NCBI GenBank assembly: GCA_009787405.1 | Contig: WRGA01000118.1 | Span: 1 to 63,583, forward strand | Direction: 5' to 3' | DNA: 63,583 bases | DNA from: Candidatus Azobacteroides sp. | GTDB taxonomy: Bacteria; Bacteroidota; Bacteroidia; Bacteroidales; WRGA01 | Shown here: positions 254 through 52,955 of the stretch, one piece after another | Position numbering within the stretch: position 1 is the stretch's first letter | Layout of the letters: each line of letters begins with the position of its first letter | The notes under the pieces: generated by a model | Told to the model about the DNA's origin: nothing | Databases searched by the model: none | The model's input: only the letters and a program-made list of their open reading frames with translations | Position numbers and translations under genes: made by a program

Positions 254-395
254 TTAAGTACATGACAGTATTTAATTTATATTATTTTAAACGCGAAGGC
301 ACAAAGTCACAACGACACAAAGATTTTAAACTTTGCGTCTTTCCGTCTTTGTGACTTGGCGTTTAAAGTATAAATTATTTTTTGCGACATACTTA
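254..395 (-). repeat. Family 1 palindromic repeat, copy B (full length)
   Basis: About 142 bp, running from 'taagtacatgacag' to 'tgcgacatactta'. Internal inverted arms (taaacgcgaag / cttggcgttta) enclose shorter caaag/ctttg repeats, so the RNA could fold into a long imperfect hairpin. It ends 11 bp before the ATG at 407. It does not encode a conserved protein; the small reading frames in it are by-products of the repeat. Confidence 0.85.
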
Positions 396-406
396 CCCGC
401 AAACAG

Positions 407-51527: not shown

Positions 51528-52567
51528 TCATTCAAAAAGAAACCGCAAATATCGGTTTGATTGATATTCAAATGTCCATTTTTCATTCCGGTAAAACCGG
51601 TGATGATTTTCATTTTGCGAAGCCGATGAATTGATGACATCAATCATATTTTGCCGGTGATAAAAAATTCCGTTTTCACGAAAATCTTCAAACACGGAAA
51701 ATTTCTCCTCGCAAATCAACGGTTTTTTATATGCAAATGCCAGATTGAAACTACCCGATACTTTATTTTCATAAAGTGAAAAATCGGCCAACGGCATGAT
51801 ATAATCACACTTTTGCAAATAAGAGTGAAACAATGAATTATCGACAAACCGGTCGAAAAGAACAAACCGGTTTTCCGAATGGAGCGCTGTTATCCGGGAT
51901 CGGATATTTTTCCGTTTTCGCTCTCCGGATTACATTTTCTCAAAAGAATAAATTTTATCCGGGCATCCGGAACTTTCTGTTCAAGAGCGGAAAACAAGCT
52001 CACGTAATTTCTCCGATTGAAATCGACGGGACCGGGAATACAGATCCAAACTTCATCCGGTTCTTTTGACAAGGGAATTACTTCCACTTGCGGGAAAAAT
52101 ACGGGATAATACGATTCAACTTCAAATCCGGCCGGCCGGACAGCCTCTTTCAGATAATCGTTCAACACAAAATACTTTTTGATTTTCCGCGTAATCAACT
52201 TTTGCCGAAGGCTTGTCTGTAATTTTTTCGGATTATGAATCGTTCCGGCAAACCCGGTTTTTTTCGGAAAAGGAAATCCTAAAAAGTTCTGTACGATTTT
52301 ATTTTGGGCTTTATTAAATATAATTTTATCAAAATTATTTTTCACTAAAAAGCGCCACAGTTTAAACAACAACATCATCCGGGAAAATCCTTTCTTATAA
52401 AAAGGATAAAAACGGATTTCATCAGCCTCGGAAAACGGCTCGACCTGTTTTTTCAGTTCTTCACTGCAAACCAACGTCACCTCATGTCCTTTTTCTTTTA
52501 AAAATAAAAGTTGAGAATACAAGCACTCGTCATGAGAATTTCCAAATTCGATGATTACCGTTTTCAT
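51528..52567 (-). pseudogene. Glycosyltransferase gene broken by a frameshift
   Basis: Two reading frames form one protein. The upstream part (52567-51890, 225 aa) begins 'MKTVIIEFGNSHDECLYSQL' and ends '...GKISDPG*'. In the -1 frame, translation continues 'IRSRITALHSENRFVLFDRF' then 'VDNSLFHSYLQKCDYIMPLA' through to 51528, with no start codon of its own (only a TTG at 51833). Rejoined at about 51893-51910, the product would be about 345 residues, a normal GT-B size. A single missing base explains it: a true inactivation, a phase-variable site or a sequencing error. Its ATG directly abuts family 1 copy I. Confidence 0.75.
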
Positions 52568-52955
52568 TTAAGTATGTCGTAAAAAATAATGGTATTGTTA
52601 ATCTTATATAGATTTAAAATAAAAACCTTATCTTCTAAAAGCTCCTTTAGTAGCTTAGCAGTCGATACAATGCAACCAATCTCACCCTTATTTCCCTTAT
52701 TTATAAATATAATAAATGTCAATAAAATCCCCTGAAATAAGCGAATGAGGGACGGAGATCAGATATATTCCCGAGCTACTAAGGGATCCGCAAAAATAAG
52801 GGTTATCTATACCTGTTTAACAATGCCAAAATAATTTATACTTTAAACGCCAAGTCACAAAGACGGAAAGACGCGAAGTTTAAAACCTTTGTGTCGTTGT
52901 GACTTTGTGTCTTCGCGTTTAAAATAATAGATATTAAATACTGTCATGTACTTAT
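52568..52955 (+). repeat. Family 1 palindromic repeat, copy I, interrupted by a family 3 element
   Basis: Left part 52568-52590 ('ttaagtatgtcgtaaaaaat' and aat). The remainder, 52828-52955, continues 'ttatactttaaacgccaagt' to 'taaatactgtcatgtactta'. Deleting 52591-52827 and one copy of the 8-bp duplication restores the family consensus exactly. The outer end abuts the ATG (52565-52567, minus strand) of the frameshifted glycosyltransferase. Confidence 0.85.
52591..52827. mobile_element. Family 3 MITE-like element, complete copy (237 bp) with target duplication
   Basis: Terminal inverted repeats ggtattgttaa... / ...ttaacaatgcc, with 18 of the first 23 positions matching, and an inner inverted core around 'tagtagctt' / 'gagctacta'. 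AAAATAAT is duplicated at both flanks (52583-52590 and 52828-52835). There is no coding capacity, so it must have been mobilised in trans. A related core is at 41296-41449. Confidence 0.8.

Follow-up and report, generated by a model that had tools for sequence, protein, structure and literature searches.

A putative IS1-family miniature element nested within a second repeat family in a Candidatus Azobacteroides genome

Among the insertion sequences of Bacteroidota, ISCaa4 of Amoebophilus asiaticus is an IS1-family element of 732 bp with 22-bp inverted repeats (17/22), a -1 frameshift and, in 10 copies, 8-bp direct repeats (PMC3196728). For a short non-autonomous counterpart in another phylogenetic setting, MITEAba12, about 40% of the copies have intact duplications (PMC6382973). 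No described Bacteroidales IS1 MITE with the ends reported below was found in the open-access literature. Here, we analysed a 237-bp element (family 3) that interrupts a repeat of a different family (family 1) in a stretch of 63,583 nucleotides, hereafter called the window.

The interrupted family-1 repeat

Direct reading of the window showed that the family-3 element has the ends GGTATTGTTAA/GGCATTGTTAA, its left tip (52591-52601) being GGTATTGTTAA and its right tip (52817-52827) TTAACAATGCC. At both ends, GGYATTGTTAA is followed inward by 5 bases and then TATAGA, and the two exact occurrences of GGYATTGTTAA in the window are these tips. The element is short, has terminal inverted repeats and carries no transposase gene, as is typical of a MITE; its 237 bp contain no ORF of at least 90 aa. 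A search for a conserved RNA fold in the MITE was negative (consensus energy of -4.7 kcal/mol, double changes in 4 of 25 pairs), and we claim no RNA structure past the inverted ends.

An exact 8-bp duplication, AAAATAAT, borders the element (Table 1). When the left flank up to 52590 is joined with the right flank from 52836, AAGTATGTCGTAAAAAATAATTTATACTTTAAACG... is restored, and the restored family-1 repeat aligns without gaps over the whole element with an uninterrupted minus-strand copy at about 255-400 of the window. Over the 119 bp to the right of the insertion, the identity with this uninterrupted copy is 95.8%. An earlier note on this DNA had given the coordinates, the ends, the 8-bp duplication and the restored junction, all of which proved correct by direct reading and alignment, and had read them as a non-autonomous element with inverted ends that transposed into a family-1 copy, a view supported by the duplication and the restored host. 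Its description can be refined in that the family-1 host extends from 52571 to 52952 and has TA duplications of its own. Between the host and the putative start codon of a 225-aa ORF (51890-52567, minus strand) the distance is 3 bp (window 52565-52571), so that the repeat, lying upstream, would form the upstream region of this gene.

Table 1 Features of the nested insertion, in window coordinates
Feature	Position	Strand	Basis or remark
TA duplication left of family-1 host	52569..52570	.	same TA pattern in L033, L051
Family-1 host, left part (AGTATGTCGTAAAAAATAAT)	52571..52590	+	alignment to window 255-400 (minus strand)
8-bp target duplication, left (AAAATAAT)	52583..52590	.	sequence and family-wide statistics
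Family-3 MITE, 237 bp, no notable ORF, IS1-type ends	52591..52827	+	
Left terminal inverted repeat GGTATTGTTAATCTTATATAGA, 22 bp	52591..52612	+	
Right terminal inverted repeat GGCATTGTTAAACAGGTATAGA, 22 bp, minus-strand reading	52806..52827	-	
8-bp target duplication, right (AAAATAAT)	52828..52835	.	sequence and family-wide statistics
Family-1 host, right part, ending CATGTACT	52836..52952	+	closest copy window 255-373, 95.8%
TA duplication right of family-1 host	52953..52954	.	sequence, alignment

It had also been pointed out that the 237 bp would belong to the original repeat if other family-1 copies contained them at the same position. The 237 bp are missing from the family-1 copies that were aligned over their full length. 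A single other copy with a family-3 insert at almost the same place in family 1 is obtained when contigs C8 and C29 are putatively joined through their 31-bp overlap within the insert; there the duplication is AAATAAGT/AAATAGGT. The uninterrupted family-1 copies closest to the C8/C29 host are not those closest to the window host, and its MITE also contains a different element; we therefore judge the two insertions to be independent, and family 1 to have been targeted repeatedly in its AT-rich start. Considering that the C8/C29 element also has the same orientation, one might propose that the 237 bp belonged from the outset to a longer family-1 variant, of which the shorter copies are deletions. 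However, family-3 copies lie at many unrelated sites, each with its own 8-bp duplication, the two hosts are closest to different uninterrupted copies with target 8-mers offset by about 1 base, and deletion leaves the 8-bp duplication unexplained, which makes this proposal extremely improbable.

An empty site in related strains, suggested earlier as a check, could not be read, as neither of two same-genus genomes offered a readable orthologous site. One had no match to the region at all. The other (G001) contains a relative of the downstream glycosyltransferase at 73.5% identity next to a different neighbouring gene, and therefore has no orthologous site there.

IS1-type ends and the candidate transposase

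In GTDB genomes, at least 113 stretches matched GGYATTGTTAANNNNNTATAGA. Among the matches listed from other genomes, the 22-bp end GGYATTGTTAA-N5-TATAGA adjoins IS1-family insA/insB in 43 of 123 occurrences, and where it adjoins insB, the insB match often stops 10-16 bp from the tip, inside the inverted repeat. The full-length insertion sequences with these ends are 729-784 bp long, with overlapping insA and insB frames and 22-bp ends. InsB matches Pfam PF03400 (E 1.8e-10), and the zinc ribbon of InsA gave a weak Pfam match below the cutoff. Only one of the nine full-length IS1 elements read (L172) has an exact 8-bp duplication, with GAAACAGC on both sides. Family 3 shares its ends with these IS1-coding elements and has an 8-bp duplication, as do the L172 element and ISCaa4. 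Given the IS1 genes adjoining such ends elsewhere, the full-length elements of 729-784 bp and the 8-bp duplication, family 3 is, as far as sequence can tell, an IS1-family MITE. For the transposase gene with these ends, which the earlier note had proposed to search for, the IS1 family was identified from other genomes, but no intact copy was found in the genome itself. A formerly anonymous repeat can now be placed in a named family and given a likely mover.

In other occurrences of the end, its inverted partner is only about 90-205 bp away, including in Altiarchaeales. Such close-set pairs, spaced 100-205 bp apart, were seen at L080, L112, L147 (Altiarchaeales MAG), L107, L171, L074, L076, L097, L152 and L084; the pair at L147 has a 7/8 duplication. 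These pairs, archaea included, are probably other IS1-type miniature elements, and the 22-bp motif recovers IS1-type elements and apparent miniature derivatives from Bacteroidota, other bacteria and archaea.

The 8-bp duplication by itself fits more than one family, as IS1595-family transposases also make duplications of this length. An intact-looking IS1595 transposase is present in the same genome (L044:1069-2067 on contig C70, 312 aa), and it could be asked whether it mobilised the MITE. We consider this highly improbable: the C70 element ends in GATTATCGGATRTTKYACCTAAA rather than GGYATTGTTAA, and it is IS1 genes that the MITE-type end adjoins in the 43 occurrences listed above. Family 3 was accordingly not placed in the IS1595 family (PF12762), whose resident member, with ends GATTATCGGAT..., does not have ends in common with it. 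The GATTATCGGATRTTKYACCTAAA ends do match another repeat family of the window (GATTATCGGATGTTGYACC..., at about 40960, 44160 and 48800), of which the C70 element is probably the mover.

The genome itself contains five IS1-type matches. One of them, at C111, is a fuller IS1-family element with other ends, GGTCGTGTCATAAATCAAATGGA. Considering that no intact matching partner was found, this or another resident IS1-family member might have mobilised the MITE, yet the C111 ends have little in common with those of the MITE beyond GG, and the C111 transposase falls outside the clade linked to MITE-type ends; its involvement is very unlikely. A second match, C123:90588-90920, is a frame-shifted, N-terminally truncated transposase relic near a contig end. 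The relic is 46% identical to InsB of L156 and groups with the transposases linked to MITE-type ends (97/98; long branch), while its own ends could not be recognised.

An intact IS1 with GGYATTGTTAA ends was not found in this genome, which is 91% complete in 125 contigs. Apart from two exact-end places, C122:14323 and C125:15561, the exact-end search for an autonomous copy returned MITE copies, fragments and apparent chance matches, and a search allowing one mismatch gave no autonomous copy among the matches listed. DDE_Tnp_1 (PF01609) was also searched for as a partner transposase, and none was found. A MITE usually shares its genome with an autonomous partner that has matching ends, but this is not a defining feature, as partners can be lost. 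Here, only relics of such a partner were found; the IS1 partner may have died out or may fall within an assembly gap.

Together, the comparison of ends and genes suggests that the 237-bp element is very probably an IS1-family MITE that was moved by the InsAB of a full-length IS1-family element in the same cell. The MITE would have kept the 22-bp IS1-type ends without the transposase gene, and InsAB acting in trans would have bound the ends of the 52591-52827 copy, excised or copied it and joined it to an AT-rich target within a family-1 repeat that was already in place. The staggered cut of 8 bp, once repaired, would have left the AAAATAAT duplication, and the partner IS1 would since have decayed or be missing from the assembly.

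Spread of family 3 and its nesting with other repeats

Besides the window copy, the 2.79 Mb of the genome contain more than 30 family-3 copies or fragments; a search with the 237 bp gave 46 matches, about 18 of them full length. The 11-mer GGYATTGTTAA occurs 35 times in the whole genome, compared to 3 times for the reversed control. Pairwise identity averages 82.5% among 18 full-length copies and is 94% between the window copy and its closest relative, indicating that family 3 has been spreading for some time. Both ends can be read in 22 copies, and in these the identity between left and right flanks peaks at exactly 8 bp (0.705 vs 0.381 shuffled). At this length, the flanks of 13 copies match in at least 7 of 8 positions, far more than by chance, as 5000 shuffles gave 0.74 such copies on average and 6 at most. 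Family 3 thus combines dispersed copies with target duplications, as a multicopy MITE should. A clear duplication is missing in 9 of the 22 copies, which is explicable by age and decay, albeit not proven. As the listed duplications contain 85% A+T compared to 59% for the window, family-3 targets are AT-rich. In 59 other genomes of the order, family 3 was not found except for two fragments of 31-37 bp. One and the same family-3 insertion, short flanks included, is present both at L009:1477-1793 (C117) and at L051:1078-1535 (C80), which suggests that the target there is itself another repeat or a small duplication.

Family 1 was found in at least 40 distinct copies. At three loci, L033 (C116), L051 (C80) and L027 (C7), it lies inside a family-3 element, and at L033 and L051 it splits ...AATCTTA/TATAG... 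with a TA duplication. At the related site L009, the short flanks and the family-3 insertion recur without family 1. These TA-flanked insertions inside family 3 argue that family 1 is an element in its own right, which duplicates TA and behaves like IS630; it has inverted ends, and the TA duplication of IS630-type MITEs is present both in the window and in the insertions into family 3. A search for an IS630 transposase gave only a weak, sub-threshold PF13358 fragment (C120:12534) without recognisable ends.

The MITE at 52591-52827 is younger than its family-1 host copy. To this extent the earlier dating of the element "after family 1" holds, but it does not extend to the families as a whole: each is found inserted in the other, so families 1 and 3 were active over overlapping periods. 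A single insertion cannot order repeat families in time within one genome that has nested copies, and the loci described here offer several natural before/after pairs for relative dating.

The nesting involves further families. The family with the resident IS1595 ends lies inside or against family 3 at L056, L031 and L060. A ATRCGAATYACGGGTTGA-ended miniature element occupies the middle of family-3 copies at L022 (C69), L029 (C115), L019 (C92) and in C8/C29 (L017 and L020, respectively); it has a GTCCCGTCAGGGAC-type interior and apparently 5-bp duplications. In L022 and L029, which lie at unrelated sites, the internal junction is identical and so is a variant base near the left end (GATTC); the duplication at L029 is 8/8. 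The simplest reading for this pair would be a MITE carrying another MITE that moved as one unit, with gene conversion as the alternative. That compound MITEs transpose as units in this way, in a genome with at least four interlocking miniature families and with families 1 and 3 alternately hosting and invading, is a proposition to which we give even odds. The window insertion is a well-preserved but ordinary event, in which bacterial genome parasites nest in each other.

Relation to described elements

The window element resembles MITEAba12 of Acinetobacter in being short and non-autonomous, with IS-like ends, duplications and AT-rich targets. In contrast, MITEAba12 is 111-114 bp long, is mobilised by ISAba12, makes 9-bp duplications, has GGCTTTGTTGCACAAA-type ends and does not belong to the IS1 family (PMC6382973). 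The Sulfolobus elements SMN1 and SM3A are likewise MITEs with assigned IS transposases acting on them in trans, but in other hosts and with other IS partners, ISC1733 and ISC1058 (PMC3718332). Compared by description and not by end sequence, ISCaa4, which like the window element is from Bacteroidota, is close to the full-length elements that have the ends of the MITE: both belong to the IS1 family, and the latter, at 729-784 bp, also have 22-bp ends. The difference is that ISCaa4 is autonomous and encodes its transposase, whereas the window element has 237 bp and no transposase.
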